Shown: piece by piece, positions 1 through 13,671 of the stretch
Layout of the letters: every line of letters starts with the position of its first letter
How positions within the stretch are numbered: the stretch's first letter is position 1
NCBI GenBank assembly: GCA_945871415.1
Contig: CAMBWG010000008.1
Coordinates: 1-16,228, forward strand
DNA: 16,228 nucleotides
Reading direction: 5' to 3'
Source of the DNA: an uncultured Desulfovibrio sp.
GTDB taxonomy: Bacteria; Desulfobacterota; Desulfovibrionia; Desulfovibrionales; Desulfovibrionaceae
The notes under the pieces: model-generated
The model's input: only the letters and a program-made list of their open reading frames with translations
What the model was told of the DNA's origin: nothing
The model's database searches: none
Translations under genes and position numbers: made by a program

Positions 1-34
1 CCCGCAGCTTCCTTCCCCCAGCGCGCTTTTTCCG
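1..34 (+). terminator. Partial terminator-like tail at window edge
   Basis: The stretch CTTCCCCCAGCGCGCTTTTT near the window edge matches, in opposite orientation, the 3' half and T-tail of the hairpin at 12301-12337 (TCCCTTCCCC then AGCGCGCTTTTTC). Here only the right half is visible, so it may end a plus-strand transcript coming from left of the window, or be a fragment of a recurrent terminator-type repeat. The pairing arm lies outside the window or is degraded. Confidence 0.35.
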
Positions 35-40
35 GCTCCA

Positions 41-186
41 GAGCAGTTTCAGTTTGAAATGCTCTGCATTTTCGACCATACGGTCTGTCGTTTCACGGAA
101 AAAAGCGCAGTTTTTCCGCGAAACGACAGACCGGGCGACGCCGTGACGCCGCCTTGCGTTTCACTTTTTCAAAGTTGAAACGCTCT
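41..186 (-). repeat. Structured intergenic repeat, full copy A
   Basis: This is a full-length copy (146 bp) of the dispersed element also found at 1012-1156 and 2981-3125, here in reverse orientation. Read on the minus strand it starts AGAGCGTTTCAACTTTGAAA and ends TTTCAAACTGAAACTGCTC, which are imperfect inverted repeats of each other. Internal hairpins include GCGTTTCA paired with TGAAACGC, a GC-rich stem, CGGAAAAA with TTTTTCCG, and GAAATGC (56-62) with GCATTTTC (66-73). The element starts on the last bases of the TAG stop of the outer-membrane gene. No coding potential is evident. Confidence 0.85.
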
Positions 187-943
187 AAAATCTGTACAGC
201 AGGCCCGCGCCTACGGAAAGTTTTGTGGCGTTTTCGACCATGGGACTGTCGTAAATTTCCTGATTGAGAAATTCGAGATTGCCGTTGGCAAAGATGCTCC
301 AGTTTTCGCTGAGGCCCACGCGGGCGGTAATACCCGCATTGGGGGACAGGGCGCTGCCGGGCTTGTATTCGGAAAGGCCGCTGGCGCGGGATTCGTCGCT
401 GTCGATACCGTAGTAATAGTCGTTGTATTCGCAGCTGGTCCATTTGAGGCCGACGGAGGGCACGAGTGTGACGCGTCCCAGATTGAAGGGATAGCTGTAG
501 GAAGCCTGCGCGATGAAGCCGTTGCTGTAGCCGAGGATATCGGCGGAGACGGTGGCCTGGAGGATGCCGTAGGGCGAAAGCAGACGATAGTTGAGGCCGG
601 CCAGCATGGAAGAATAGCGGTCGTCCAGCTGTTTCATGGCATGGTCGGTGCTCCAGCTGGCCAGATAGCGCTGCGGCAGATAGGAGAGCTGCACATTTAT
701 TTCGTGCATGTCGTTTTTGAAGAGGTGCAGGCCGCCGCTGATGCCGCGCAGATAGAAATGTTCGCCTTCATAGCCCAGCAGCGGGAGCGTGGCCCCGGCG
801 CTGTAAACGTCCTTGTATTCGGAGGTGATGACGGAGCCCCCCAGCCCCAGGTCAAAGCCCCAGCGCTCCTCGGCATGGAGCGAGGGCGGAAGGGCAAGCG
901 CGGCTGCGCAGCAGAGAGACAGCAGAGCGGAACGAAGTTTCAT
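185..943 (-). CDS. MipA/OmpV family outer-membrane protein
   Basis: The 252-residue protein has a clear Sec signal peptide: MKLRS, a hydrophobic Leu/Ala run, and a likely cleavage after SLHA (residue 24). The mature part alternates aromatic and polar residues as in a beta barrel and ends with the outer-membrane signature YRF. The segment with SPYG, SADILG, YSYPF and the tract NDYYYGIDSDESRASGL is typical of the MipA/OmpV family, and the length fits. The family is placed in the outer membrane; MipA of E. coli scaffolds murein enzymes, while the role of other members is unsettled. The ATG at 943 is preceded by AAAGGA about 7 nt upstream. The gene sits alone between repeat copies A and B, downstream of the nhaC terminator, so it probably has its own promoter; I could not identify one with confidence. 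Confidence 0.85.
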   Translation of the reverse strand: MKLRSALLSLCCAAALALPPSLHAEERWGFDLGLGGSVITSEYKDVYSAGATLPLLGYEGEHFYLRGISGGLHLFKNDMHEINVQLSYLPQRYLASWSTDHAMKQLDDRYSSMLAGLNYRLLSPYGILQATVSADILGYSNGFIAQASYSYPFNLGRVTLVPSVGLKWTSCEYNDYYYGIDSDESRASGLSEYKPGSALSPNAGITARVGLSENWSIFANGNLEFLNQEIYDSPMVENATKLSVGAGLLYRF

Positions 944-1011
944 GAGATAATCCTTTCAGAAAAATGGGGAATGTGCGGGCCTGCCGCTGGAAAGCGACGG
1001 CCGCGTATGCT

Positions 1012-1156
1012 GGAGCGTTTTACCTTTGAAAAGGTGAAACGCGAGGCGGCGGCACGACGCCGCCCGGCCCAATGAGAGCGGAAAAAACACGTTTTTTCCG
1101 TGAAACGACAGGCCGTGTGGTTTGAAAGGCGAGGTCTTTCAAACTGAAAATGCTCC
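1012..1156 (+). repeat. Structured intergenic repeat, full copy B
   Basis: This full copy (145 bp) begins GGAGCGTTTTACCTTTGAAA and ends TTTCAAACTGAAAATGCTCC. Four hairpins can be drawn: the left end (GCGTTTTACCTTT folding on AAAGGTGAAACGC), GGCGGCG with CGCCGCC, a perfect 10-bp stem CGGAAAAAAC (1079-1088) with GTTTTTTCCG (1091-1100), and GAAAGGC (1124-1130) with GTCTTTC (1134-1140). It lies between the nhaC terminator and the outer-membrane protein gene, so it occupies the region where that gene's promoter would be expected. Confidence 0.87.
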
Positions 1157-1164
1157 AGATGAAG

Positions 1165-1208
1165 AAAGGAAAGCTCGCTTTGCCGTGGCAAAGGAGCTTT
1201 CCTCTTTT
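1165..1208 (-). terminator. Intrinsic terminator downstream of nhaC
   Basis: A strong hairpin has left arm 1168-1184 (GGAAAGCTCGCTTTGCC), a two-base loop, and right arm 1187-1202 (GGCAAAGGAGCTTTCC), with one bulged base. Read on the minus strand it is followed by TTTCTTC, and it lies about 80 nt after the nhaC stop, so it most likely ends that transcript. The plus-strand side has TCTTTTG, so it could work in both directions. Confidence 0.7.
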
Positions 1209-1244
1209 GTGTACGTATTGCGTGCGGCTTTTTAGAGCCTTTTG

Positions 1245-1289
1245 CCCTATAGTCTGAAACGCACGGCGTTTCAGACTGACGATGTTCTA
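1245..1289 (+). repeat. Right-end fragment of the intergenic repeat, copy F
   Basis: A perfect 12-bp inverted repeat, AGTCTGAAACGC (1251-1262) and GCGTTTCAGACT (1266-1277), is separated by ACG and followed by GACGATGTTCTA. This resembles the right end of the repeat (GAAACGC, GCGTTTC, AACTGAAAATGCTCC) with several substitutions. The outer end runs into the TAG stop of nhaC. It is a diverged fragment, so membership is less certain than for copies A to C. Confidence 0.55.
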
Positions 1290-2837
1290 GGCGGCCGCTT
1301 CGCGGCTGCGAACACGGCTGCGGAAGTAGAGCAGGGTCAGCACCATCACGACGAGACCGGCCCCGAAGCTGATGGGCAGGCTCTGGCTGAAGCCCGCCAC
1401 GATATAGCCGACAAAGCTGCTGACGGCAACAACGCAGGCATAGGGCATCTGCGTGGAGACGTGTTCGATATGCGTACAGGCCGCGCCGGCGCTGGACAGA
1501 ATGGTGGTATCGGAAATGGGGGAGCAGTGGTCGCCGAAGACGCTGCCCGCGAGCGTGGCGGACAGGGAGATCAGCACCAGGCTGCCGTTGGGATCAATGA
1601 CCTGCGCCACGGGCACAACGATGGGGATCAGGATGCCGAAGGTCCCCCAGGCCGTGCCGGTGGAGAAGCTGAGGAAGCCCGCCAGAATGAAGATAATGGC
1701 GGGCAGAAGGCCGCCGGTAAGGCCGCCGTCGGCTTCCACAAGCGACTTCACGAAGACGGGTGTCTGCAGCAGGTCGCGGCAGACGCCGCTGATGGCCCAG
1801 GCCAGCACAAGAATGGTGTTGGCGGGCATCATGGCCTTCATACCCTGCATGCAGCCGTCCATGAACGCCTTGAGGGACAGGACGCCGCGGGGCACGAACT
1901 GGACAAAGGCCACGAGCAGAGCCGCAAATGAGGCCAGTGCCAGCGCGGGAGCCGCCGAGCAGTTGCCGAAGGCGGCCGCAAGGGTATGGTACGCGGGATC
2001 GCTGCCCCAGTAGCCGCCATTGAAGAGCAGGGCCATGATGGCAAAGACGATGAGAGCGGCAATGGGGATCAGCATGTCGAGCACATGGCCGCGCATACTG
2101 GCTTCGGGTTGCCTGTGCCCGTCGTCCTTCTTGTCGCTTTCGCCCACATCGCCGGCCTGAGCGCGCAGCTCCGCCTTGCGCATGGGGCCGAAGTCGAAGT
2201 TGCAGGAGCTGATCAGCACCACCATGATGATGGAGAGCAGCGCGTAGAAATTCCAGGGAATGGTCGCCACAAAGGCTGCCAGATCGCTTTCAAAGGCGCC
2301 GGTTGCCTTCAGATTGCTGCCCACGGCCGCGGCCCAGCTGGAGATGGGCGCGATGATGCAGATGGGGGCGGCGGTGGCGTCGATGATATAGGCCAGCTTG
2401 GCGCGGGAAATTTTATAGCTGTCCGTTACCGGACGCATGACCGTGCCCACGGTAAGGCAGTTGAAATAGTCGTCAATGAAGATGAACGCGCCGAGGGCGC
2501 TGGTGGAGAGCAGAGCGCTGGTCTTGCCCTTGATGCGTCGGGTGGCCCACTTGCCGTAGGCGCGGGTACCGCCGGCCAGCGAGATGACATAGACCAGCGA
2601 ACCCAGCAGGGTGCAGAAGATGATGATGTTGAAATCAACCTTTTTGACCATGACGGCAAAGGCCGTTTCGATGGTGCGGACAATGACGAAGTCCTGCCCC
2701 ATGCCGACAGTGTAGATGAGCGAGCCGCTCAAGATGCCGATCATGAGGGAAGAAAAGACTTCCTTGGTCCAGAGAGCCAGCGTGATGGCGATGATGGGCG
2801 GCAGCAGGGAAAGAGCGCCCGCGTTGAAAGGATCCAT
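1287..2837 (-). CDS. NhaC-family sodium/proton antiporter
   Basis: This is a 516-residue inner-membrane carrier with about 11-12 hydrophobic helices. The motif GDHCSPISDTTILSS followed by GAACTHIEHV and TQMPYA near residues 430-465 is the signature of the NhaC antiporter superfamily, and IDDYFNCLTVGTVMRP in the first half also fits. Members exchange Na+ for H+, or organic acids or amino acids with ions (NhaC, MleN), so the substrate cannot be fixed from sequence. I start at the ATG at 2837 (MDPFNAGALSLLPP) because GGAG lies 7 nt before it; an upstream ATG at 2885 has no such site. A short hydrophilic loop in the middle (DKKDDGHRQPEAS) is cytoplasmic by charge. The gene is monocistronic, with a terminator hairpin on each side. 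Confidence 0.88.
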   Translation of the reverse strand: MDPFNAGALSLLPPIIAITLALWTKEVFSSLMIGILSGSLIYTVGMGQDFVIVRTIETAFAVMVKKVDFNIIIFCTLLGSLVYVISLAGGTRAYGKWATRRIKGKTSALLSTSALGAFIFIDDYFNCLTVGTVMRPVTDSYKISRAKLAYIIDATAAPICIIAPISSWAAAVGSNLKATGAFESDLAAFVATIPWNFYALLSIIMVVLISSCNFDFGPMRKAELRAQAGDVGESDKKDDGHRQPEASMRGHVLDMLIPIAALIVFAIMALLFNGGYWGSDPAYHTLAAAFGNCSAAPALALASFAALLVAFVQFVPRGVLSLKAFMDGCMQGMKAMMPANTILVLAWAISGVCRDLLQTPVFVKSLVEADGGLTGGLLPAIIFILAGFLSFSTGTAWGTFGILIPIVVPVAQVIDPNGSLVLISLSATLAGSVFGDHCSPISDTTILSSAGAACTHIEHVSTQMPYACVVAVSSFVGYIVAGFSQSLPISFGAGLVVMVLTLLYFRSRVRSREAAA

Positions 2838-2903
2838 GATAAGACTCCGGCAAGGGGTGACGGCAGTGGGCAAACCCGATCGCACACTGCGGAAAGTCCT
2901 GTG

Positions 2904-2933
2904 ATGCTAGCATGAAAGTACACCTGCGGGCAA
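2904..2933 (-). promoter_or_regulatory. Weak sigma-70 promoter candidate for nhaC
   Basis: On the minus strand TTGCCC (2928-2933), an 18-bp spacer and TAGCAT (2904-2909) match the -35/-10 pattern in 4 of 6 positions each. It lies about 70 bp before the nhaC ATG and just after the 2947-2980 hairpin. The -10 box is inside a small palindrome, ATGCTAGCAT. Position is sensible, but the match is weak. Confidence 0.3.
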
Positions 2934-2946
2934 GGCGGGAAAACGC

Positions 2947-2980
2947 AAAAAAGCCCGTCCCGAAAGGGATGGGCTTTTTT
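2947..2980 (-). terminator. Bidirectional intrinsic terminator upstream of nhaC
   Basis: AAAAAAGCCCGTCCC (2947-2961) pairs with GGGATGGGCTTTTTT (2966-2980), giving a stem with one G-U or mismatch position, a short loop and runs of six T on either strand. It separates nhaC from the leftward transcript of the membrane-protein gene that ends at 3320. Its right T-run directly abuts repeat copy C. Confidence 0.8.
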
Positions 2981-3125
2981 GCGCGTTTCAACTTTGAAAA
3001 AGATGAAACACGAAGCGGCGGCACGACGCCTCCCGGCCAGAAGCGAGCGGAAAAACTGCGTTTTTTCTCTGAAACGACAGGCCGTATGGTCGGAAATGCA
3101 AAGCATTTCAAACTGAAAATGCTCT
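2981..3125 (+). repeat. Structured intergenic repeat, full copy C
   Basis: This third full copy (145 bp) is in the same orientation as copy B. It begins GCGCGTTTCAACTTTGAAAA and ends TTTCAAACTGAAAATGCTCT. It keeps the left stem (TTTCA with TGAAA), the GGCG/CGCC stem, the A-run/T-run stem and a perfect right hairpin, GAAATGC (3093-3099), AAA, GCATTTC (3103-3109). It starts in the tail of the terminator at 2947-2980 and stops about 20 bp before the orphan coding remnant at 3145. Confidence 0.87.
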
Positions 3126-3144
3126 CATGGACGGGAAGATGTCT

Positions 3145-3336
3145 TCATTCCCGCTGGAAGATGGCGGAGAGCGCCCGGCGGATTTCCAGCTGAGCCAACG
3201 CCGCCGGTTTCTCCGTCCCCGGGATCTGACAGGCTCCTTTGAGCATCAGAGGCAGATCCCGGGCGGAACCGCCGCTTCCGGGGAAATGGCGATCCGGCGA
3301 CAGACTGACAGTGACGCCGCTAGCCGGAGGTGTTTT
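3145..3336 (-). pseudogene. Start-less 63-codon open frame, probable 3' remnant of a lost gene
   Basis: A minus-strand frame opens right after TAA (3337-3339) and runs 63 codons to TGA (3145-3147). It has high G/C at third codon positions and a protein-like composition. The later part, with ARDLPLMLKGACQ, AALAQLEIRRALSAIF and QRE at the end, looks like an amphipathic helical C-terminus. It overlaps the end of the DUF6056-type gene by 17 nt and has no credible start; the only ATG would give 33 residues with no clear Shine-Dalgarno. It somewhat recalls the helical C-terminus of DNA polymerase III delta (HolA), but I cannot confirm that. A perfect 11-bp inverted repeat, CCCGGGATCTG at 3218-3228 and its complement at 3253-3263, lies inside. 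Confidence 0.4.
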
Positions 3337-5143
3337 TTAGCGGAATCAAATCAAAGGAAAATTTCCCCTTTCCAGGTGAGACCAGCCACATATCGCCTTG
3401 ATTGGAATACATACCCCATGGGATGGCCTTGCCGTTGCCCCCGTCGCCCTCGGACCAGTCCAGAGTAATATCCACACGAGCGCACAGGAGAGGCACAAGG
3501 AGGAGCCGGAGGTCTCCGGCACGACCTTTTTCCAGCCAGCGGAAGATAGTGTCCGCTAGCAGTTGCGGGAAGTTATCCAGCAGACCAGGTCTGCCATAAT
3601 AGTAGATGTGCATATATTTTGTTTTGGGGGCGGAGTCAGAGGGCGCGTAGTGCACGCTGATGGCGGAGGTGTCCGCCTCTACCGTCAGAGGGAGCGTCGC
3701 AGTCTGTTCCGTCTCTGGTATCAGATGAGACCGGGACGTGACAGTGGCAACGCTTTTGAGCCCGTACCAGGCCGCCACAGCGCGGTTTACCCAGAATCTT
3801 GGATCCGAATTGATATCCTGCAGGTGAGAACCCAGCACCATATGTCTGCCAGCCCGGATTCCCAGCGGAGGAACCTCGGCGTGACCTCCCTTATGCGCGG
3901 CAAAAATGGCTTCGCGCTGTGCTATGGCTTTGTCTACCTGCCAGAATTTCCATCCTTCGTAAGCGACAGTGCTGATACAGACAACCATCAGCACTACGCG
4001 CAGTATGGAGAGACGGCGCAGATCCTTCCGGGAGGCTGCCGGCAAGACGGCATAGGCCGTGATGCAGGCAGCAATGATGAACTGGACTGAGGTCGTGGCA
4101 AAGGCCCGGGGGGGCGGCCAGGACGTGAAAAAGTAGGCGGCATGCGTGACTGCCGCCGGGAGCAGAAAGAGCAGCGCCGCATGGGGCACATGCAGGGGCC
4201 AGCGTCTGCCGTAGTTGCGGTACAGAATCCGGCAGCCCCAGAAAAGCAGAAGCAGCGGAACGCCCTGCATCAGCAGAGACAGCGGCAGATGCAGGAAATA
4301 GGACAGGATTTTTTCAATGAAGGTACTGTCCAGATATCTGTGGACATTGGGATCCTTGGTCAGAAGCAGTCGTTCGGCGTTCCCCGGGGCCAGGATGGTA
4401 AGCGCGCCGCCGATACTGATGCCCAGCGCTCCTGCCAGCAGCAAGCGGGGAATGCGACGAACCTCCGGCTTTTGCCGGAAATACAGCCAGGCCGTGCAGG
4501 CAATGGCGGTTACCGGCAGGGCGGCGCTGGTGGCATAATCCAGCATGGCGACAAATATGCCTGCCGCAAAAAAGAGAATACACCGCACGGCGGGGGAGGA
4601 CGTCGAGACTTCTTCCTGATCCAGCGCAAAGCGGTACGGCAACAGAAAGAGCGCCTGACCAAGCAGCGTATAGAAGCCGCCCACGCTGATCCAGAAGAAT
4701 GCGGAACCGAAAGAAGGCATGCCGACCCAGAGCAGAGCGCCCAGTGCAAGCAGCCAGCCGGCACTCAGCGTTTCCCGCCAGCGTACCCCCCAGATACACA
4801 TATGCAGCAGGAACAGATACGCCACAAAGGCCGTGGCGGCCAGCAGGGCGTATACCGGATACGGCAGCATGAAAATAAGGTAAACGAGCAGGTTGCCGGT
4901 AAAGCGCCCGCACCATGTGGGATACATGGCCGCAGCCTGTCGCAGCGCCGCTTCAAACGTCATGGGATCGAGCCGCTCAATGGGGGCCCCGGACATGAAG
5001 ACTGAATAACATGGCTGCATGTTTCTGCTGAACAGAAAGTTATCCGTCATGTACGGGGTCAGAAGAAGGAAATAAAGCAGAACGAGCCAGATGATGGCGC
5101 AGGCAGCAACTATGGATTTATTGGCGGAATAATGAAGATTCAT
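3320..5143 (-). CDS. Polytopic membrane protein, DUF6056-like
   Basis: The protein is about 607 residues, with roughly ten hydrophobic helices in the first 390 and a soluble C-terminal region of about 200. The charged loop after the first helix (TDNFLFSRNMQ), the segment PTWCGRFTGNLLVYLIFMLP and the tail with WVNRAVAAWYGL resemble DUF6056 membrane proteins, which look like GT-C-type glycosyltransferase or polymerase proteins; the function is unproven. I chose the ATG at 5143 (MNLHYSANKS), 40 nt after the upstream stop, because the longer frame to 5239 overlaps that gene. No good Shine-Dalgarno precedes it. It is last in line behind the flagellar genes. It could modify a surface glycan or flagellin, but nothing in the sequence shows this. 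Confidence 0.7.
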   Translation of the reverse strand: MNLHYSANKSIVAACAIIWLVLLYFLLLTPYMTDNFLFSRNMQPCYSVFMSGAPIERLDPMTFEAALRQAAAMYPTWCGRFTGNLLVYLIFMLPYPVYALLAATAFVAYLFLLHMCIWGVRWRETLSAGWLLALGALLWVGMPSFGSAFFWISVGGFYTLLGQALFLLPYRFALDQEEVSTSSPAVRCILFFAAGIFVAMLDYATSAALPVTAIACTAWLYFRQKPEVRRIPRLLLAGALGISIGGALTILAPGNAERLLLTKDPNVHRYLDSTFIEKILSYFLHLPLSLLMQGVPLLLLFWGCRILYRNYGRRWPLHVPHAALLFLLPAAVTHAAYFFTSWPPPRAFATTSVQFIIAACITAYAVLPAASRKDLRRLSILRVVLMVVCISTVAYEGWKFWQVDKAIAQREAIFAAHKGGHAEVPPLGIRAGRHMVLGSHLQDINSDPRFWVNRAVAAWYGLKSVATVTSRSHLIPETEQTATLPLTVEADTSAISVHYAPSDSAPKTKYMHIYYYGRPGLLDNFPQLLADTIFRWLEKGRAGDLRLLLVPLLCARVDITLDWSEGDGGNGKAIPWGMYSNQGDMWLVSPGKGKFSFDLIPLKNTSG

Positions 5144-5183
5144 ATTATTTGGGTATAAAGGACAGTTGCCGGAATACGGAAGG

Positions 5184-5615
5184 TTACCCGGCCTGTGCCG
5201 GAGGATTCTGGGCAAGGATGAGCTCGACTTCATCGACACTCAGTCCGGCATTGCGGGCAATCTGGCGGGCCGAAAGACCCTTTTTGCGGCCGTTGAGAAT
5301 AATCTCGCGCAGAAACTGGGGGGAGCGCATGATGCCTTCCGCCTGCTCCAGCAGACGGCGCAGCTCCTTGCTGCGTTCCTCCAGCTTTTCTTCCAGATTC
5401 TTCAGTTCCGCCTGGCGCTGGGCAAAGGTGGCGACAACTTCCTTTTCGAGGCGGGCGTTCATTTCAATGCGCCCGAGCAGAGCCTGCTGATTGGACTGCA
5501 ACAGATTGAACAGCCGTTCGGAACGGCGCAGACGCATATAGAAAAAGAAAATGCCGCCGAGGATAAGCAGTTCCAGAAGGAAAAAAGCAAGAGCAATCAG
5601 GGTGATGTTGTTCAT
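5184..5615 (-). CDS. SwrB-like flagellar-operon protein: membrane anchor, coiled coil, C-terminal HTH
   Basis: This 143-residue protein has an N-terminal membrane helix (about 5-27), a charged, heptad-like coiled coil (about 55-95, with KNLEEKLEERSKELRRLLEQ) and a C-terminal helix-turn-helix-like segment (about 104-136, with GLSARQIARNAGLSVDEVEL). The order and the last motif resemble DUF6115 proteins including Bacillus SwrB, which ends the fla/che operon and promotes activation of the flagellar export gate. That is a resemblance of architecture, not proven homology. The start codon overlaps the upstream stop as ATGA, which indicates translational coupling and membership of the flagellar operon. 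The C-terminus ends in a short Pro/Ala tail. Confidence 0.72.
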   Translation of the reverse strand: MNNITLIALAFFLLELLILGGIFFFYMRLRRSERLFNLLQSNQQALLGRIEMNARLEKEVVATFAQRQAELKNLEEKLEERSKELRRLLEQAEGIMRSPQFLREIILNGRKKGLSARQIARNAGLSVDEVELILAQNPPAQAG

Positions 5616-5944
5616 ATCTTTATGTTCAAAAGGTTGCCCACAAGGGGAGAGCCGGACGGCCGGGGGCCGTCGTCTTCTTCCGGCGCGGGCTGGAAGGGAC
5701 GACGCTTGCGACGGTTGCCGAACATCTGGCCTCCGTTCTGATGCTGCGCATCGGGGCTGACTTTGGCTCCCTCCGCCTGGGGTTCAGCCTTGTTGACCTG
5801 CTGCTGTTCCTGCTTGGCCATTTCCGCGGCCAGCGTCCGGGACATGGCCGCCGCGGCCTGCGGGCCGACAGTCGTCGCATTGACGATGGGAGCCGCAAGA
5901 CCGGTCTGGGCATACAGAATGGCCATGGTGGACTCGATGCTCAT
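5612..5944 (-). CDS. Hypothetical 110-aa protein in flagellar operon
   Basis: A small soluble protein without signal peptide or membrane helix. The first 45 residues form an Ala/Met/Glu-rich helical stretch (VGPQAAAAMSRTLAAEMAKQ). The rest is polar and probably disordered, with a basic patch NRRKRRPF near residue 77 followed by acidic EEDDG. I do not recognise a family. GGGGGG lies about 5 nt before the ATG at 5944. Its end overlaps the start of the next gene by four bases and it begins 32 nt after fliL, so it is co-transcribed and coupled with flagellar genes. The layout suggests a lineage-specific flagellar accessory protein. Confidence 0.65.
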   Translation of the reverse strand: MSIESTMAILYAQTGLAAPIVNATTVGPQAAAAMSRTLAAEMAKQEQQQVNKAEPQAEGAKVSPDAQHQNGGQMFGNRRKRRPFQPAPEEDDGPRPSGSPLVGNLLNIKI

Positions 5945-5976
5945 GCGTCCCCCCGCGTACTCTTTAAAAATATGGG

Positions 5977-6660
5977 CTATTGCCCGATATAGCTTTCAAA
6001 GAGTACGTCTTTTGCCTTGTAGCGCGTCAGATAGTTGTTGATGGTATCCACGATATCCTTTTTCATGCCTTCCACCTGTCTGGCATCAAGCAGCGTTTCA
6101 AAGGTCTTGCTGCGCAGATAGAAGTAGATGGCGTCGCGGATGACGAGCATGTGCCGGTCAATTTCCTGTTCTGCCTGTATGTCGTCGCAGACAATGGAGA
6201 ACGTGCAGATCAGAAAATGGGAATGCCCCTGGGCATCCTTGTTTTCCACCCAGAAGGGATCGAGGGCCTTGAGACTTTCCGCGGGCGGCGGGGGTACGGT
6301 CTGAGTCGGCACCGTGATGATCTGGGGTTGCGGCGCGTTCGCGGGAGGCGGAGGCGGCACGGCGGGCGAGCGCAGGAAAAACCACCAGACGGCAGCCGCG
6401 CCGACCAGCAGAAGAATACCGGCCGCCGCAGCCATGATGATGAGCTTTTTCTTTTTGGCCGCGCCGGTATCAGGGGCGGGAGCGGCCGGCGTCGCCGGCG
6501 GACGGCTGGCAGGTCGCGCGGGCAGATCCTGGCGTTGTTCCTCTTCCTTCTGGAGGAAGGGCGCATCATCAAGGTCCAGCTCGACCTTCTTGCTGGCAGC
6601 CGGAGGCACAACCTCCATCTGAAGCGTGCCGGACGCTGTTTTTGTCTTGGTATCAGCCAT
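5977..6660 (-). CDS. fliL: Flagellar basal-body-associated protein FliL
   Basis: This 227-residue protein has a cytoplasmic N-terminus rich in Pro and Ala, a positive stretch AKKKKL, one membrane helix (about 73-96), a Pro-rich periplasmic linker and a C-terminal FliL domain from about residue 135. The family end pattern is visible: VIRDAIYFYLRSKTFETL, then KDIVDTINNYLTRYKAKDVL and the terminal FESYIGQ. FliL surrounds the stator near the basal body and supports motor torque. The N-terminal arm is longer than in typical FliL (about 150-180 residues). GGAG lies very close to the ATG at 6660, so initiation may be weak. It follows cheY after a 191-nt gap that contains hairpins. Confidence 0.88.
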   Translation of the reverse strand: MADTKTKTASGTLQMEVVPPAASKKVELDLDDAPFLQKEEEQRQDLPARPASRPPATPAAPAPDTGAAKKKKLIIMAAAAGILLLVGAAAVWWFFLRSPAVPPPPPANAPQPQIITVPTQTVPPPPAESLKALDPFWVENKDAQGHSHFLICTFSIVCDDIQAEQEIDRHMLVIRDAIYFYLRSKTFETLLDARQVEGMKKDIVDTINNYLTRYKAKDVLFESYIGQ

Positions 6661-6851
6661 TCTCCGAGCCTGCCGGGACGCCGTCGGGGCGTCAGAAAAA
6701 GGTTGTGTCAGGGGATTGCCGGACGCGGCGCTGACCTACGGAGGTGACGCATTTTTCGCCTGCCGCCGGACGGACAGCAGGCGAAAAAAGACGTGTTCTC
6801 GTTGCTGTGCCGGGGGGGCGGACCCCGGCCGGAAACGGGAAACCGTGTGCC
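6661..6851. other. Hairpin-rich gap between cheY and fliL
   Basis: No gene is supported here. It holds a perfect 12-bp inverted repeat, TTTTTCGCCTGC (6752-6763) with GCAGGCGAAAAA (6777-6788). Its T-run is on the 5' side on both strands, so it is not a standard intrinsic terminator. On the minus strand a GC stem (GCCGGGG with CCCCGGC, near 6809-6833) comes first, and GACGCC with GGCGTC at 6674-6691 is nearest to fliL. They could process, stabilise or partly block the transcript between cheY and fliL. No promoter was recognised. Confidence 0.5.
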
Positions 6852-7232
6852 TTAAGCGAAAATCTTGTCGATTTTCTGCTTCATGGTATCGGCGGTAAAG
6901 GGCTTTACAATGTAGTTGGACACCTTGGCCTGCACGGCTTCGATGATGTTTTCCTGCTGGGCCTCTGCCGTTACCATCAGGAAGGGAATGTCGGCAAACT
7001 GTTCGCTGGCGCGCACTTTCCGCAGGAGCTCGATGCCGGTCATGTTGGGCATATTCCAGTCGGAGACGATGAAATCGATCTTGTCGCGATTGAGAATGTC
7101 CCAGGCAGTGGTGCCGTCGTCGGCTTCGACCACATTGTTGAGATCAAGCTGGCGCAGGATGTTGCGCACAATGCGTCTCATGGTGGAAAAATCGTCCACG
7201 ACGAGGATGCGCATATTCGGATCGTAAGGCAT
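6852..7232 (-). CDS. cheY: Chemotaxis response regulator CheY
   Basis: A single receiver domain of 126 residues with no output domain. The acid pocket is D13 and D14 (ILVVDDFSTMRR), the phospho-acceptor is D58 (FIVSDWNMPNMTG), the switch residues are T88 (MVTAE) and Y107, and the conserved lysine is K110 (VKPF). All are offset by one from E. coli CheY. The phosphorylated form binds the FliM/FliN switch to change rotation. AGGAGGG precedes the ATG at 7232, one of the best ribosome sites in the window. Its place between fliA and fliL points to a motor-dedicated CheY rather than a general two-component regulator. Confidence 0.92.
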   Translation of the reverse strand: MPYDPNMRILVVDDFSTMRRIVRNILRQLDLNNVVEADDGTTAWDILNRDKIDFIVSDWNMPNMTGIELLRKVRASEQFADIPFLMVTAEAQQENIIEAVQAKVSNYIVKPFTADTMKQKIDKIFA

Positions 7233-7266
7233 GTTTCCCTCCTGAGTTCGTGACGGCTGCCGTGAC

Positions 7267-8055
7267 TTATGCGTGCGCTGCGGCGTCGTCTCCGTATAGT
7301 CTGATGAATTCCTTGCGAAGACGCCGGAGCGCCTGGGAGTGCAGCTGGGAAACGCGTCCTTCGGTGATGCCCATGATTTCGGCGGTCTCCCGCATATTTA
7401 GCTCATCAGCATAATAAAGGGAGAGTACCAGCTTTTCCCGAGGTGTCAATCGGTCTATCAGCGGCGCTATCCGCTCCACCAGTTCGCGTTGCGCCGTGCC
7501 GCCATAGGGTTCGTCGCCGGATGTGGCCGTTTCGGACGAGAGCGTGTCCTGAATGGCGTCCAGCGAAAGCCAGAGCTGATTTTGCAGGGCTTCGAGCCCC
7601 TGACGGATATCGCGCAGATCCAGGCCGGTAGCCGCCTGCAAATCCTCTTCCGTTGCCTGACGCCCCTGCTCGTGTTCAATTCTGCGCATGGCTTCGTCCA
7701 GCAGCCGGATACGCTGACGCAGCGAACGGGGCAGCCAGTCCAGACGGCGCAGTTCGTCGAGCATGGCCCCGCGGATGCGGTTTTCGGCGTACGTCTCAAA
7801 GCGGATGCCGAGCTGAGGGCGGAATTTGCCCAGAGCCTCCATGAGTCCCAGCGTCCCGGAGCTTATCATCTCGCCCAGCTCCACGTTGCGCGGCAGCTTG
7901 GATTTCAGGCGCAGAGCAAGAAAGCGGATTTTGGGCGCATAGTGACGCACCACCGCTTCCTGTTCACTCGGGGAAAAGTCTTCCCATGGCCGGGCGCCCG
8001 TTTCGAGGTCTTCCCACGGGCCCGCTGCCTGCGCGTATGCTGTGGCGTTTTTCAT
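7267..8055 (-). CDS. fliA: Flagellar sigma factor FliA (sigma-28)
   Basis: A 262-residue sigma-70-family factor of group 3. Region 2 spans about 32-105, with LGEMISSGTLGLMEALGKF and RFETYAENRIRGAMLDELR. The FliA hallmark DWLPRSLRQR follows at 106-115, region 3 runs to about 165 and region 4 from 185, with the helix-turn-helix MRETAEIMGITEGRVSQLHS. It directs RNA polymerase to late flagellar and chemotaxis genes. The N-terminus carries a duplicated PWED motif (13-16 and 23-26). The ATG at 8055 has no Shine-Dalgarno in the 20 nt before it. An 18-codon mini-frame (8052-8108) ends on it as ATGA, so translation may be coupled from upstream. It lies 60 nt after flhG and 34 nt before cheY. Confidence 0.92.
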   Translation of the reverse strand: MKNATAYAQAAGPWEDLETGARPWEDFSPSEQEAVVRHYAPKIRFLALRLKSKLPRNVELGEMISSGTLGLMEALGKFRPQLGIRFETYAENRIRGAMLDELRRLDWLPRSLRQRIRLLDEAMRRIEHEQGRQATEEDLQAATGLDLRDIRQGLEALQNQLWLSLDAIQDTLSSETATSGDEPYGGTAQRELVERIAPLIDRLTPREKLVLSLYYADELNMRETAEIMGITEGRVSQLHSQALRRLRKEFIRLYGDDAAAHA

Positions 8056-8115
8056 AGGAAATGGACGGAGCAGGAACCCATACGACCGGCGTATGTGCCT
8101 TCCGCCATGCCCGCG

Positions 8116-8928
8116 TTAGCGGAACAGCAGCTTTTTCCAGAAGAATTTGATATTACCGTCCAGCTCGTGCGGCGGCTCCCAGGTAGTGATGGTCGCAGCC
8201 ATGTCCGCCACGGCCCGCGCGGCGGACGAATCGGGCGCAAAGGCGCAGAAGGGCTTCTGCTGCACCACGCTGGCGCGCACGCCGGGATCGCGCGGCACGA
8301 AACCGAGGAAGTCCAGCGACACGCCGTCAAGGAAATGATCGCAGGCCTGATAAAGGCGCTTGAACATTTCCTTTGCCGTGGCGGCATCCTTGGCCATGTT
8401 GACGCAGACTTTGAAATGTTCCACGCCGTGCGCCATCTTGAGCACTTTGATCAGCGCATAGGCGTCCGTCAGGGATGTGGGTTCGGGCGTAAGCACCACA
8501 AGACGCTGCTGCGCCGCCAGATTGAAATACAGGACGTTTTCGTTGATGCCCGCGCCGGTATCCACAATCAGACAGTCAATGCTGCCTTCCAGATCGTCCA
8601 TGGCTTCCAGAAGCTCCAGCTTCTGTCCGGTGGAAAGAGTCAGCATCTCGCTCATGCCGGAACTGGCGGGCAGAATGGAAAAGCCGTACGGCGTGGGGAA
8701 AAGAATATCCCTGATTCCGGCCCCTTCATGGAACAGATGAAAAAGATTCCGCGGCGGCGTCAGGCCCAGCAGCACATCCACATTGGCCAGACCGAGATCC
8801 GCGTCAACAAGGACGACACGTTTGCCCTTTTTGGCAAGCTCCAGCGCCAGATTGACGGACAGGTTGGTTTTGCCGACGCCGCCCTTGCCGGAAGTGACGG
8901 AAAAAACCAGAGGAAAGGTATCGCTCAT
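8116..8928 (-). CDS. flhG: Flagellar number regulator FlhG (MinD-like ATPase)
   Basis: A 270-residue MinD/ParA-type ATPase. The deviant Walker A, SGKGGVGKTN, is at residues 13-22, followed by VLVDADLGLANVDVLLGL and the Walker B-like LIVDTGAGI. With FlhF it limits the number and site of flagella; FlhG stimulates FlhF GTP hydrolysis. I start at the ATG at 8928 (MSDTFPLVFSVTSGKGG), with GGAG 8 nt upstream; the longer frame to 9141 is an overlap with flhF. With this start there is no N-terminal DQAxxLR motif, the segment that activates FlhF in Bacillus. It lies 53 nt after flhF, as expected for the pair. Confidence 0.9.
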   Translation of the reverse strand: MSDTFPLVFSVTSGKGGVGKTNLSVNLALELAKKGKRVVLVDADLGLANVDVLLGLTPPRNLFHLFHEGAGIRDILFPTPYGFSILPASSGMSEMLTLSTGQKLELLEAMDDLEGSIDCLIVDTGAGINENVLYFNLAAQQRLVVLTPEPTSLTDAYALIKVLKMAHGVEHFKVCVNMAKDAATAKEMFKRLYQACDHFLDGVSLDFLGFVPRDPGVRASVVQQKPFCAFAPDSSAARAVADMAATITTWEPPHELDGNIKFFWKKLLFR

Positions 8929-8981
8929 GCCGGGTGCTCCATGCAGCTGATCAGAAAAAGAACGGCACTGTCGTTTACGGG

Positions 8982-10058
8982 CTAGTCGCCGGAGTGAATG
9001 GGCAGCTGTCGCTTGAAGATGAGCCGCCACACCAGAGGTTCCGTCGCCGGGCTGAGGCTCTGCTTCAGTTCCGGACCATAGGAAATGGCGGAAATGGGCA
9101 GCCTCGCCTCGTGGGCCACATTGACGAGCGCGCCGTAGCACACGGCCTCATCCAGCTTCGTCCAGATAAGGCTGGTGTCGCCGTCCGAGGCATAGCGGTG
9201 CAGCAGGGCCTGCATCTGTACGCCGTCATAAAAGGGGCACATAACAAGATGCGTCGCGTGGGGCTGTTCGTCAATGCCCATTTCATGCTGCCACTGGGCA
9301 AGGTTCATTTCCGGCGTCATGCCGGGCGTGTCGATGAAGACGGCGTCGGCCTCGGCCGTCAGGGCAAGCGCCTTGCGCATGCTCTCGGCGTCGGCGGCTT
9401 CAAGGTAACCGAAATCCGACAGCTCGGCCCAGTGGCGCAGAGTCAGACGGCCGTTGCCGCGCAGACAGTCCGTATTGATGAAGGCTATCTGCATTTCCGG
9501 CTTTTCCTTGCGCAAATGCAGGGCGCAGCGGAGCGCGGCCGTGGTCTTGCCGTTGCCGTAGGGGCCGGCAAAGAGGTGGATGCGCTGCGGCCAGGCCGCG
9601 CCGCCCCAGGAACGGATGGGCACGATACCGGCCAGACTTTCCAGTACCGAAGCGCCGGGGCGGGCCGCCAGCATATTGTAAAGAGCGATGGAGACGCCGT
9701 CGGATACGCCCTCCCGCTGCAGATATTCCAGCGCCACACGCTGACGGGGCGTCAGGCGATCCATGCGGATGGCGGGCTTCATCAGCATGAAAAGCTGTTC
9801 CTTGACGCGAACCCAGTCCTTGTGCCATTCGCTCCAGCCCGCACCGGACGAGGGCGCGGGGGCCACGCCTTCAGCCGGCGCGGAAGCGCCGGCGCCGGCC
9901 TGGGCCGGGCGTTCGACACCCGCCATGATTTCGTGGCACAGCTCGCCGTTTTTGCGATAGGTGCGATTGGAGAGGATCACCGCGTCGGCGCCCAGCTCCG
10001 CCTTGATTTGCGCGAGCACTTCCTGTGAACTGGCGCCTGAAAATGTCTTGACCTGCAT
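8982..10058 (-). CDS. flhF: Flagellar biosynthesis GTPase FlhF
   Basis: A 358-residue SRP-family GTPase. The N-terminal B domain begins MQVKTFSGASSQEVLAQIKA, typical of FlhF; an Ala/Pro linker (about 50-73) and a helical N domain follow, then the G domain from about 158. The P-loop is GPYGNGKTT (165-173), the G3 element is DTPG (243-246) and the G4 element is TKLDE (300-304). FlhF recruits early flagellar parts to the pole. The P-loop, the NTDCLRGNG region and the end (GPELKQSLSPATEP) depart from the usual GPTGVGKTT, DTYRIGA and VPDDL forms, so it is a diverged member. AAGGAAG lies before the ATG at 10058. A sigma-54-like promoter is 98 bp upstream; flhA, often next to flhF, is not here. Confidence 0.9.
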   Translation of the reverse strand: MQVKTFSGASSQEVLAQIKAELGADAVILSNRTYRKNGELCHEIMAGVERPAQAGAGASAPAEGVAPAPSSGAGWSEWHKDWVRVKEQLFMLMKPAIRMDRLTPRQRVALEYLQREGVSDGVSIALYNMLAARPGASVLESLAGIVPIRSWGGAAWPQRIHLFAGPYGNGKTTAALRCALHLRKEKPEMQIAFINTDCLRGNGRLTLRHWAELSDFGYLEAADAESMRKALALTAEADAVFIDTPGMTPEMNLAQWQHEMGIDEQPHATHLVMCPFYDGVQMQALLHRYASDGDTSLIWTKLDEAVCYGALVNVAHEARLPISAISYGPELKQSLSPATEPLVWRLIFKRQLPIHSGD

Positions 10059-10155
10059 CGTCTGCTTCCTTGAACTGCGAATCTGTCGGGCGCCTTGTCC
10101 GGCGCGGCCGCCTGCGCGTCAATTATTCGTAACGGCCATCATCGACCATAACAAA

Positions 10156-10171
10156 TGCAAGATGCAGGCCA
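10156..10171 (-). promoter_or_regulatory. Sigma-54-type promoter for the flhF operon
   Basis: On the minus strand TGGCCT-GCATC-TTGCA matches the -24/-12 consensus TGGCAC-N5-TTGCA, with GG and GC at the exact spacing and a perfect -12 element. Transcription would start near 10144, about 85 nt before the flhF ATG. Early and middle flagellar genes of many polar flagellates use RpoN with an FlrC or FlgR-type activator, which fits the gene content. Confidence 0.65.
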
Positions 10172-10513
10172 GAACGGAAGAACCGCCGGACACCAGGGTT
10201 GCGCATTCCGTTGGGGGACACAAGGCGCGTTATCCTACGGCGAAGCCGTTTTTTTTGCAAATCCCGGTGTACGGGCGTGCGACAGCGGCAGAGAAGGCGC
10301 GGCAGGCGGTATGGGGCAGGGAACGTCAGGCAAAAGGCAAGCGGCATGTCGCTGGAGAACAACATGCCGCTGACTGCGGAGCGAATCCGCTGAAGGGTAT
10401 TTTCCACATTGGATTTTCCGATCCCGACCCCATGCCGGGATCGGAAAATCTGTGGGGAGGGGAAATTCAGGGTGCGCGGCGCCGTCGGGCCCTCGCGGGG
10501 GTTCTCGCCGTGA
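10172..10513. other. Intergenic region with inverted repeats, no gene recognised
   Basis: About 340 bp between the TPR-gene terminator and the flhF promoter. It contains a perfect 15-bp inverted repeat (10412-10426 and 10436-10450, GATTTTCCGATCCCG and complement, 9-nt loop), a 10-bp one (10340-10349 and 10362-10371, AGCGGCATGT and complement), and a short plus-strand stem followed by eight T (10237-10256). A 136-codon minus frame across it is Arg/Pro/Leu rich and not convincing. The structures could belong to a small RNA or a long leader, but no known RNA family is recognised. Confidence 0.45.
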
Positions 10514-10546
10514 CGAAAACCGGGGACGCCCACTCCCGCGTCCCGG
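10514..10546 (-). terminator. Probable intrinsic terminator of the TPR gene
   Basis: On the minus strand CCGGGACGC (10538-10546) pairs with GCGTCCCCGG (10520-10529) with one bulge and is followed by TTTTCG. It lies about 15 nt after the TPR stop codon. The T-run is short, so efficiency may be moderate. Confidence 0.55.
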
Positions 10547-10560
10547 AATATGTAACGGGC

Positions 10561-11124
10561 CTAGGCAGCCACGGTATTGAGCATTTCCTTGGCGCCGGCA
10601 TTTTCGGGGTTGGAGCCCAGCACGATTTCGAGGTGACGGCGGGCTTCGTCGTTGCGACCCAGATACATGAGGCAGCCGGCCAGAGCCACGCGCACGGCCT
10701 CGGCCTGTTCGCTGCTTTCAAGGGCGGCTTCCAGGTAGGGCACGATTTCTTCCACGCGCTGGAGCTGATAGCCCACGCGCACAAGGCAGTTGAGGGCGAC
10801 AATATTGTCGGGAAGCTTCTTCAGGGTCTCGGCGAAGCTGGCAAAGGCTTCTTCGTTGTGGCCGAGCTGCATGTAGACAAGACCGATACCGCAATGAGCC
10901 TTGCCGTTGTTTTCCACCGAAAGGGCCTTCTTGTAGAGCGTCAGGGCATTGTCATACTCGCCGTGCTGGATGGCGATGGTGGCCAGACCCATGTAAGGGG
11001 CGGCGCCGCAGTTGGGAGCGGTCGCGGCCTTGCGGTAGTAGTCGGCGGCCTTGTCGTAGTCGCCCATGAACAGATAGCATTCGCCCAGTTCGTTGTTGAT
11101 TTCGTAATCGAGCTTGTTTTCCAT
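10561..11124 (-). CDS. Tetratricopeptide (TPR) repeat protein
   Basis: A 187-residue protein made almost wholly of TPR-like helix pairs, with units starting near residues 8, 42, 76, 109 and 142. Typical positions are visible: NELGECYLFMGDYDKAADYY, GLATIAIQHGEYDNALTLYKKAL, GIGLVYMQLGHNEEAFASF and CLMYLGRNDEARRHLEIVL. There is no signal peptide or membrane helix, so it is a cytoplasmic scaffold. I use the ATG at 11124, preceded by GGAGG 7 nt upstream; the longer frame to 11313 crosses the promoter. A sigma-54-like promoter about 50 bp upstream suggests co-regulation with the flagellar operon it precedes. Partners cannot be inferred from sequence. Confidence 0.85.
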   Translation of the reverse strand: MENKLDYEINNELGECYLFMGDYDKAADYYRKAATAPNCGAAPYMGLATIAIQHGEYDNALTLYKKALSVENNGKAHCGIGLVYMQLGHNEEAFASFAETLKKLPDNIVALNCLVRVGYQLQRVEEIVPYLEAALESSEQAEAVRVALAGCLMYLGRNDEARRHLEIVLGSNPENAGAKEMLNTVAA

Positions 11125-11175
11125 GGTTTTCCTCCCCAGAGGCTTATGCGGCTGTACCGCGTTTGCCTCTCCTCT

Positions 11176-11191
11176 TGCATCTCGTATGCCA
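11176..11191 (-). promoter_or_regulatory. Sigma-54-type promoter for the TPR gene
   Basis: On the minus strand TGGCAT-ACGAG-ATGCA fits TGGCAC-N5-TTGCA with two mismatches and the exact GG-to-GC spacing. The predicted start near 11165 gives a leader of about 40 nt ending at the GGAGG/ATG of the gene. The AT-rich stretch just upstream (11208-11240) could hold an activator site or a sigma-70 promoter instead. Confidence 0.58.
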
Positions 11192-11292
11192 AGTAGTGTT
11201 GAAAATGTAAAAATATTAAATATCAATATGTTATGTTTTGTGTCTGGAAACGGTGCGGCAGTTTTGTCCCTTTTTTGCCCGGCGCCGGGCAT

Positions 11293-11327
11293 AAAAAAAG
11301 GCCCCGGCCGCAAAAGCGACGGGGCCT
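11293..11327 (-). terminator. Intrinsic terminator of cmk
   Basis: On the minus strand AGGCCCCG (11320-11327) pairs with CGGGGCCT (11299-11306), with a smaller hairpin inside the loop, and is followed by a run of seven T. It lies about 40 nt after the cmk stop, so it separates cmk from the TPR gene promoter. Confidence 0.85.
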
Positions 11328-11366
11328 CTGGGAGCGGTATGGGCAGAATTTGCCGTGCCGGGGGGA

Positions 11367-12068
11367 TCAGGAGCGGGAGAGCCCTCCTTTATCCCGGATA
11401 TGCTGCAGGATGCGCTCCTGCACGGCGGCAATATCGAGGTATGATGTGTCCACGATGACGGCATCGTCCGCCGGGCGCAGCGGGGCTATGGCCCGATTGC
11501 GATCCTGGGCGTCCCTTTGACGGATTTGTTCCGCAAGCTCGTTGATGTCCGCCTCCTGTCCGCGCTGCCGCAGCTCAAGCAGGCGACGCTGCGCCCGTAC
11601 TTCCGGAGCCGCGTCAAGAAAGAACTTGTGGCGTGCCTGCGGAAAAACCACGGTTCCCATGTCGCGTCCTTCGGCGACCAGCGGCCCGGCTGTGGCCAGC
11701 GACCGCTGGGCTTCCAGCAGTATCTCGCGGATGACCGGCACGGCCGCAATGCGCGACGCCAGCATGCCCACTTCTTCCGTGCGGATTTCCTCGCCGACAG
11801 GATCGCCGTTGCAGCGCAGGCGGGTCCGGCTCCCCTGTCCTTCCAGGCTGAAAACCCACTGACGGCCGGCCTCCAGCAGGTCGGCGGCGGAGCGTTGTTC
11901 CGCGCCGGGGCCGAGACGCAGGGCCAGCGTGCGGAACATGGCCCCGGTATCCATATAAAAGATGCCGAGAGCTTCGGCCACATTGCGGGCAAGCGTGGTC
12001 TTGCCGACACCGGCAGGGCCGTCAAGGGTGACGATCGCTGCCAGGGAACCTTTTTCATCCAGAGGCAT
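11367..12068 (-). CDS. cmk: Cytidylate kinase
   Basis: A 233-residue P-loop nucleoside monophosphate kinase that phosphorylates CMP and dCMP. It shows the P-loop DGPAGVGKTT (16-25), the substrate-site motif MDTGAMFRTLAL (39-50), VAEGRDMGTVVFP and KFFLDAAPEVRAQRR in the middle, and the LID-type stretch IRQRDAQDRNRAIAPLRPADDA with the closing VIVDTS. Its length is close to the family norm of about 225. AGGA lies about 7 nt before the ATG at 12068. It has its own terminator, and the 300-bp gap to hisC holds a repeat copy, so it is probably transcribed alone or from a promoter in that gap. Confidence 0.93.
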   Translation of the reverse strand: MPLDEKGSLAAIVTLDGPAGVGKTTLARNVAEALGIFYMDTGAMFRTLALRLGPGAEQRSAADLLEAGRQWVFSLEGQGSRTRLRCNGDPVGEEIRTEEVGMLASRIAAVPVIREILLEAQRSLATAGPLVAEGRDMGTVVFPQARHKFFLDAAPEVRAQRRLLELRQRGQEADINELAEQIRQRDAQDRNRAIAPLRPADDAVIVDTSYLDIAAVQERILQHIRDKGGLSRS

Positions 12069-12150
12069 GAAGAATCCTTTTTGAACGTGTGGAATACTGC
12101 GCCAGTTTCTTCAGGGTGTGTTTTCCCGAGGGCTCCCCGGAAAACTCCTC

Positions 12151-12230
12151 AGAGTATTTTCAGTTTGAAACGCTGGGCGTTTCAAAACTCCCGCCCTGTC
12201 GTTTCACCTTTTTCAAAGTTGAAACGCTCC
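12151..12230 (-). repeat. Shortened copy D of the intergenic repeat
   Basis: This copy is 80 bp, in reverse orientation. It keeps both ends: on the minus strand GGAGCGTTTCAACTTTGAAA at the start and GCGTTTCAAACTGAAAATAC at the end. It lacks the GC-rich stem and the A-run/T-run stem. The right hairpin is strong: TTTGAAACGC (12164-12173), TGG, GCGTTTCAAA (12177-12186). The rest of the cmk-hisC gap (12231-12300) is AT-rich with no recognised gene and a small GGAAAC/GTTTCC hairpin near 12283-12296. Confidence 0.82.
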
Positions 12231-12300
12231 AAGGGTCGCTAACTCAAATTTACAATTTTTTCAAATAAATAGAAATGTCGGAAACTCCTGTTTCCTCTGA

Positions 12301-12337
12301 AAAAGCGCGCTGGGGAAGGGATGGGGGTCCCTTCCCC
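12301..12337 (-). terminator. Intrinsic terminator of hisC
   Basis: On the minus strand GGGGAAGGGA (12328-12337) pairs with TCCCTTCCCC (12312-12321) around a six-base loop, followed by AGCGCGCTTTTTC. The T-run starts seven bases after the stem, which is unusual, but the same tail recurs at the left window edge, suggesting a reused terminator module. It lies about 35 nt after the hisC stop. Confidence 0.6.
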
Positions 12338-12370
12338 CCAAAAACAACTTACGAATAGTGTCAACAGACC

Positions 12371-13534: not shown

Positions 13535-13545
13535 AGATATCTCTC

Positions 13546-13585
13546 AAAAAAGGCCGCCTCCCCCGAACAGGTCCGGGGAGGCGGC
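13546..13585 (-). terminator. Strong intrinsic terminator between uspA and hisC
   Basis: On the minus strand GCCGCCTCCCC (13575-13585) pairs with GGGGAGGCGGC (13553-13563), a perfect 11-bp stem followed by CTTTTTT. It would end the uspA transcript. It lies almost on top of the hisC start, leaving no room for a downstream promoter. A small hairpin, CGGAGT-GAAG-ACTCCG, lies just before it on the same strand. It may therefore be a conditional terminator for hisC. Confidence 0.85.
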
Positions 13586-13671
13586 AACGGAGTCTTCACT
13601 CCGGGTCAGGGACAGGAGAAAATGACGCGCCGGCATCGGCGCTGCAAAGCGGCGGCCGTTGCGTCAATGGA

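Follow-up and report, generated by a model that had tools for sequence, protein, structure and literature searches.

A probable IS630-family miniature transposon that inserts at stop codons and carries a folded interior in Desulfovibrio

A stretch of 16,228 nucleotides from an uncultured Desulfovibrio sp. (GenBank assembly GCA_945871415.1, contig CAMBWG010000008.1, positions 1 to 16,228; hereafter the window) holds three full copies of a dispersed, intergenic repeat of about 144 bp. We consider these copies to be probable non-autonomous mini-transposons of the IS630 family (Tc1/mariner superfamily) that are tolerated at stop codons and whose folded interior is selected during spread. This reading is carried by TA target duplications with empty counterparts in related genomes, by terminal inverted repeats (TIRs) held in common with a complete IS630-family insertion sequence (IS) of a relative, and by interior hairpins whose pairing is compensated between lineages. 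The element itself had been recognised in an initial annotation of the window, which mentioned neither the stop-codon insertions nor the conservation of structure across genera.

The element and its copies in the window

Blastn against the window's own genome, with matches 84–100% identical, placed the three annotated full copies well beyond chance. Compared in pairs, they are 78–84% identical over their full or nearly full length (blastn E 6.7e-28 to 9.2e-39), with copy 1 running in the opposite orientation to copies 2 and 3, a difference that the initial account of three like copies had not drawn. The outermost letters first assigned to them belong to the flanks, the element proper measuring 143–145 bp here; its consensus is 144 bp, GAGCGTTTCA...TGAAAATGCTC (GAGC...GCTC), which is too short for a transposase gene, as in a miniature inverted-repeat transposable element (MITE). 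The three partial copies are also genuine, and blastn and a profile search refined their limits. The statement that no copy lies inside a gene holds for most, the exceptions being copy 1 and a 53-bp derivative, each overlapping the third base of a stop codon. The features are:

41–185, minus strand: full copy 1; base 185, at its tip, forms position 3 of the TAG stop of a MipA/OmpV-type gene
1013–1155, plus strand: full copy 2, between the genes at 185–943 and 1287–2885; flanking dinucleotides TG and CA
2981–3124, plus strand: full copy 3, upstream of the minus-strand gene at 1287–2885; flanks TT and TC, with no visible TA duplication
1235–1287, strand not assigned: 53-bp derivative retaining both tips, with TA at 1233–1234 and 1288–1289, in the stop codon of an antiporter gene
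12152–12229, minus strand: 78-bp derivative (profile positions 1–35 and 90–144), intergenic between cmk and hisC
15234–15279, plus strand: right-hand fragment of a copy (profile positions 101–144), with weak blastn similarity reaching to about 15211
185–943, minus strand: gene hosting copy 1 in its stop codon, MipA/OmpV-type outer-membrane protein (Pfam MipA, E 1.5e-47)
1287–2885, minus strand: gene hosting the 53-bp derivative in its stop codon, Na+/H+ antiporter family (Pfam Na_H_antiporter, E 5.1e-53)

Copy 3, which adjoins a terminator-like hairpin at about 2943–2978, has the least regular predicted RNA fold of the three full copies.

Target site and empty sites

Among 145 full copies, TA flanks the element on the left in 91, on the right in 97 and on both sides in 69, and the other frequent flanking dinucleotides, CA and TG, are one change away from TA. 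The next base outwards is a pyrimidine on the left in 121 of 145 copies and a purine on the right in 122 of 145; the preferred target is YTAR, where Y is a pyrimidine (C or T) and R a purine (A or G). Longer target duplications are rare (k = 3 in 3 of 145 copies vs 0.5 when shuffled), and none above 2 bp stood out.

At positions 1233–1289 the window reads TA-element-TA, where two related genomes, G021 (locus L140) and G048 (locus L141), have a single TA within the same flanks and a TAA stop. The orthologous place of copy 2 is empty in both relatives. At the site of copy 1, the G048 stop codon is without a copy (another copy lies about 70 bp away), and G021 has an element-like end at the corresponding stop codon. 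A script that joined the flanks of each of 234 copies and matched them against every locus flagged 42 copies, with best-match junctions of TA in 26, TG in 8 and others in 8, many of these flags being neighbouring element copies within one locus. Seven flagged pairs were clean by eye, with one TA at the junction (L052/L078, L047/L167, L136/L020, L193/window, L233/L236, L163/L196 and L111/L174). Duplication of a TA target together with empty sites is the behaviour of a MITE, and of the two alternatives first proposed for the repeat, a MITE or an element like the repetitive extragenic palindromic (REP) sequences and bacterial interspersed mosaic elements (BIMEs), it is the MITE that agrees with this duplication, the IS630 TIR, the copy number and the empty sites.

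Insertion at stop codons

With genes called by a small home-made caller, the first base of the element coincides with the third position of a stop codon in 35 of 108 full copies (13 of 42 in the window's own genome, G000, and 22 of 66 in G048), so that TA plus the first base of the element reads as a stop, nearly always TAG. The stop is rebuilt as TAG because both tips of the element begin with G. The window cases are copy 1 (MipA-type gene) and the 53-bp derivative (antiporter gene), with TAA in G048 at both; a G048 copy sits in the stop codon of a cheY-like gene, whose counterpart in the window (6852–7232) has a TAA stop free of any insertion. In 34 of the 35 stop-codon copies, and in all 18 with an intact second TA, a purine follows the second dinucleotide, which indicates original codons of TAA or TAG rather than Tyr. 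We dismissed insertion into Tyr codons as the origin of the pattern on the basis of these 34 copies, an argument limited by the general YTAR preference (84% R), which pulls towards a purine too.

Target availability accounts for much of the stop-codon share. YTAR sites in the G000 sample number 66 in stop codons vs 106 in intergenic DNA, alongside 13 of 42 full copies in stops, and a strong enrichment beyond target availability is unneeded there; in G048, with 60 vs 263 such sites, the 22 of 66 copies in stops are about 1.8 times the expected share. Copies in stop codons point the same way as the gene in 17 cases and the opposite way in 18. In the two sampled genomes, 26 of 257 and 30 of 277 called genes (about 10%) have an element that sits at or over the stop codon or no more than 3 bp from it.

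Under the transposon reading, an IS630 transposase would act in trans on the 144-bp GAGC...GCTC unit, and insertion into the TA of a TAA or TAG stop would be followed at once by reconstruction of TAG from the leading G. Because YTAR occurs seldom inside genes and often at stop codons, roughly a third of full copies would come to lie in stops, with no visible effect on the protein.

Copy number and distribution

The dispersal supposed by the initial annotation is borne out by many further copies in the host genome. G000 is an assembly of 2.56 Mb in 435 contigs, 79% complete, in which blastn gave 617 first-look candidates; all 40 that were scored were matches (122–155 bp, 84–100% identity). A profile search of 21 stretches of G000 (337,763 bases including the window) found 82 non-overlapping matches, 45 of them full length (1.33 per 10 kb); together the matches occupy 2.75% of the bases. 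Scaled from this 338-kb sample to the 2.56-Mb assembly, the total is roughly 340 full copies and 620 copies of all kinds. Nine stretches of G048 (180 kb) held 38 matches, 24 of them full, covering 2.5% of bases, a density that rests on 9 of 20 stretches, those chosen for known matches being excluded.

Of 61 genomes of the genus, 16 gave a blastn match to the element, which is densely spread in some species and was not found in many others. Among the matches listed for an exact 26-base motif were metagenome-assembled genomes (MAGs) of Candidatus Desulfovibrio intestinigallinarum, uncultured Desulfovibrio, Desulfovibrionaceae and Mailhella. In keeping with the initial annotation, which knew no named family with such ends, an Rfam search of the window gave 0 matches, and a search of seven loci with distant copies at E up to 5 gave 21 matches, none reaching the gathering score; a known RNA family was dismissed accordingly. 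Phage or plasmid cargo was dismissed since phage and plasmid collections were without a match; one 6.4-kb IMG/VR contig has two exact matches to a 19-base motif. Literature searches of open-access text listed no report of a Desulfovibrio MITE or of the present element.

Several arrangements of copies were also observed. Copies lie at or near contig ends in G000 (contigs C50, C154, C182, C219 and C289), and the repeat is thus probably itself a cause of the fragmentation of this assembly. Three copies stand head-to-tail at L279:1322-1757 with 146-bp spacing, adjacent copies having one TA in common. On a 184-kb contig from another genus (G294:C3; loci L065, L315 and L316), the six listed of nine core matches all fall within the first 30 kb, a cluster that represents either a transferred island or a binning chimera.

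An IS630-family mobiliser

The initial annotation had pointed to a transposase gene with matching ends as the thing to look for, and one was found in G048. A search of five genomes with Pfam DDE_3 (PF13358) was positive in three, including G048 and G021. The G048 element (locus L157) is a 989-bp IS630-family IS at 1398–2386, between TA dinucleotides, encoding a transposase of 322 aa (NCBIfam IS630 model, E 7.8e-57); its TIRs match at 17 of 22 positions, and those of the G021 relative, which has a stop within the transposase frame, at 20 of 22. The left 19 bp of the 144-bp element are identical to the left 19 bp of the G048 IS (19 of 19), and beyond this tip the two have no common stretch longer than 13 bp. 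A TIR common to a short element and a complete IS is a further property of MITEs, and on these sequence grounds the element is probably moved in trans by an IS630-family transposase.

Relatives of the G048 transposase (E ≤ 1e-10) were detected in 17 of 61 genomes of the genus. A further genome, G002, may hold a second element/IS630 pair: the right tip of one element copy equals that of one IS630 copy over the first 15 bp, within the limits that other copies differ by one base and that the left tips agree little beyond GAGC. Hairpin 3 of the G002 element has the stem CCTGAAAA/TTTTCAGG in place of CGGAAAAA/TTTTTCCG.

The second alternative of the initial annotation, a REP/BIME-type element moved by a REP-associated tyrosine transposase (RAYT, of the Y1 type), would agree with short palindromic units that are intergenic and of high copy, and Y1 matches were found in 7 of 14 genomes searched. 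Against this, PF01797 was not found in the other seven (G000, G048, G007, G037, G004, G301 and G033), among which G000, G004 and G301 are incomplete and G048 is 99% complete, and both the TA duplication and the TIR in common with IS630 point elsewhere. Given several carriers without a Y1 match and the TA duplication, we dismissed this explanation as extremely improbable.

Other repeats and traces of IS630 were noted in the same genomes. At the edge of a contig of G040 (G040:C136:3-119), 39 residues are 100% identical to the G048 transposase. The antiporter encoded in the window's genome has 93% identity with its G040 counterpart and 97% with its G048 counterpart; the 39-residue identity despite divergence of the antiporter hints at recent IS transfer. 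A longer unit adjoining TA at L188:19540-19771 has the ends GGGCCTGTTAACAC / GTGTTAACAGGCTC, with the GAGC tip in common, and is possibly another IS630-type MITE; the exact tip is present a single time in the G000 sample, and longer pieces recur in G021, G040 and G000. Finally, another repeat is dispersed through this genome: the purine-rich palindrome GGGGAAGGGA...TCCCTTCCCC (L188:19650-19745; window 12301–12367), for which blastn gave 26 pieces across the 338 kb sampled from G000, two within the window.

Conservation and covariation of the interior hairpins

In distant copies, taken from other species of the genus, the hairpins follow one another in the same order while the letters differ. 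RNAalifold, applied to 30 chosen sequences (25 of 33 distant candidates plus five near copies; L246, L255, L257, L261, L262, L268, L269 and L270 were left out as degenerate, wrongly anchored, redundant or partial), identified 19 of 30 pairs with compensatory changes on both sides. In a trimmed alignment of 27 of these rows (L239, L265 and L267 being excluded for a broken or long hairpin 2), 91.5% of cells pair, a percentage inflated by hand-picking rows for an intact fold, and 19 of 34 pairs are changed on both sides. The covariation score was 0.262 vs 0.109 when shuffled, with 0 of 500 shuffles reaching it, and slid partners scored at most 0.060. Compensatory change of the kind expected of a structured RNA is thus present in these hand-picked rows.

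A covariance model of hairpins 2–4 (E ≤ 1e-4, strict filters) matched 28 of the 297 genomes searched in the order; all 28 belong to a single family, and they represent 6 of 55 genera, one of which reaches only E 9.4e-5. Across the phylum, with strict filters, 4 of 297 genomes matched, all in the window's genus. Most matches outside the model-building set have the same hairpins with new stems, and the weakest (L294, L296, L297, L299 and L300) are less regular. One group of low-copy matches, class B, includes G283 and G301, each with a copy separating leuC from leuD, antisense and adjoining the leuC stop codon (the genes were named by family search in G283 and by likeness in G301).

The internal loop of hairpin 3 is retained in most aligned lineages. 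Its 3' strand and the TATG that follows the hairpin have diverged by 0.036 each, compared with 0.175 for the apical loop and 0.181 for the 5' strand of the internal loop.

Within 310 distinct near-full copies, one-sided pair changes (1388) outnumber double Watson-Crick changes (331), and 261 of the latter fall at the three pairs 9/25, 10/24 and 117/125, which look like subfamily marks; the remaining 70 compare with 24.5 after shuffling. The preponderance of one-sided changes suggests that single copies mostly decay and that compensated states occur in spreading groups. G-T and A-C mismatches number 478 vs 410 in copies (199 vs 131 in hairpin 4 and the inner stem of hairpin 3) and 17 vs 17 across lineages.

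These paired changes might be mutational rather than selected, if template switching during quasi-palindrome correction copied one arm of a hairpin onto the other. Signs of it are present: the left arm of hairpin 3 in window copy 1 is fully complementary to the right arm (with one G-T pair) and has lost the internal loop, two places in L096 fit the same near-perfect hairpin 3 palindrome, and the 70 double changes outside the subfamily pairs exceed the shuffled expectation. Such correction does occur in the element family and may add some paired changes. However, it should erase the unpaired internal loop, which most lineages keep and whose 3' strand is among the least diverged interior parts; corrected places numbered three among the pattern matches listed, and one-sided changes greatly exceed double ones (1388 vs 331). 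As the explanation of the compensated pairs in general, template switching therefore appears doubtful.

A second alternative is an RNA element whose plus-strand transcripts, folded into four hairpins, would stabilise 3' ends, serve as processing sites or terminate transcription for the genes they follow, and would be kept because they benefit the host. The share of full copies beginning in stop codons would suit such a role, as would the gene context of 88 classed copies (27 convergent, 56 co-directional and 5 divergent), the excess of G-T over A-C in hairpins 3 and 4, the class B fold kept despite unlike hairpin sequences, and the leuC/leuD copy common to two genomes. Yet the copies show no orientation bias, either at stops or within 300 bp downstream of gene ends (59 vs 47, p 0.29), and the G-T excess vanishes across lineages; the even gene orientation and the equal mismatch counts both speak against a strand-specific role in host mRNA. 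Related genomes are also without copies at several of the same genes. A scan of window positions 1–3600 found six terminator-like matches, two of them in copy 1, but none in copies 2 and 3, and the total was not above shuffles (mean 4.2, sd 2.2), for which reason an intrinsic terminator was dismissed. We regard an RNA element maintained for host benefit as unlikely.

Weighing the transposon reading

In the interpretation as IS630-type mini-transposons, the four-hairpin interior, with the conserved internal loop of hairpin 3, would be selected while the element spreads rather than mainly at each host locus, by aiding transposition or making insertions tolerable. Compensation between lineages combined with one-sided decay of single copies leads us to infer that selection on the fold acts during the element's own spread.

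Several observations weigh against this interpretation. Window copies 2 and 3 have no intact TA flanks. In 15 of the 108 full copies, more than 10 bp are shared with a gene predicted by the home-made caller: the called start is inside the element in 13 cases, one call spans a copy and one ends in a copy. The number of pair types in the alignment was equalled by 21 of 500 shuffles, and the excess of double changes over the shuffled value (70 vs 24.5) leaves room for some pairing to be maintained, or copied, at individual loci. Class B (G007, G037, G004, G283 and G301) keeps the core without GAGC/TA, IS630-like tips. As to the mobiliser, only 6 of the 16 element-bearing genomes have a relative of the G048 transposase (E ≤ 1e-10); G043, 100% complete by marker genes and with 360 first-look candidates, gave no DDE_3 or G048-type transposase match, and G000 has one DDE_3 match, with such ends not found nearby and no relative of the G048 transposase. 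An absent mobiliser is a weak counterpoint because MAGs lose repeats, and the sequence data are best described by a mobiliser that is present in some carriers and missing, lost or unassembled in others.

Class B also bears on a wider idea, which we put forward tentatively as the less probable course: that the four-hairpin core is a travelling nucleic-acid device, with tips varying by IS630 lineage and a low-copy class B that lacks those tips, preserved by its fold more than by its letters, and perhaps an RNA cargo.

Comparison with known repeats and implications

Bacterial MITEs are commonly regarded as IS remnants (PMC5896051). The closest likeness in manner of working is RUP of Streptococcus pneumoniae, a 107-bp, intergenic repeat with IS630-like TIRs and a TA target, proposed to be a MITE moved by IS630-Spn1 (PMC2229807); it is present in 108 copies, and its TIRs pair with each other in the fold (PMC3049150). 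Like the present element, RUP is an IS630-type MITE with a TA target. As far as descriptions alone can be compared, the present element differs in its approximately 340 full copies (extrapolated), four separate hairpins, core in six genera, different tips and stop-codon insertions. The Correia/NEMIS repeats of Neisseria are likewise small with TA at their ends, and their transcripts form long stem-loops for which RNase III cleavage has been proposed (PMC2229807); their 24-bp TIR and their host differ from ours, again by description only.

QMITE1 and QMITE2 of Coxiella are MITEs as well, with 45 and 78 copies, 0.93% of the genome together and 7–9 bp repeats in some table rows, and all functional annotated genes that they affect bear the insertion at the 3' end (PMC5896051); the present element, in comparison, takes up about 2.5–2.75% of sampled DNA and duplicates TA. 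BOX and SPRITE of S. pneumoniae are small interspersed repeats with a strong predicted RNA fold, and SPRITE lies near gene 3' ends, with no IS match and no target duplication established (PMC3049150). Both resemble our element in size and fold, and cross-genus covariation is not mentioned for them in the excerpted text of that source.

The TA target inside TAA and TAG, with a leading G that restores TAG, offers a simple account of how hundreds of copies can be present per genome, and copies in stop codons probably interrupt the assembly of MAGs as well and alter stop-codon usage. In matches from six genera, an interior with no relation to the IS retains its fold and an unpaired loop while letters and tips change, and this retention turns the function of MITE hairpins into a testable question. 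Were the core indeed a travelling device, a structured cargo would aid the spread or the tolerance of its carrier, and such elements might constitute a new class of bacterial repeat, selfish or domesticated.

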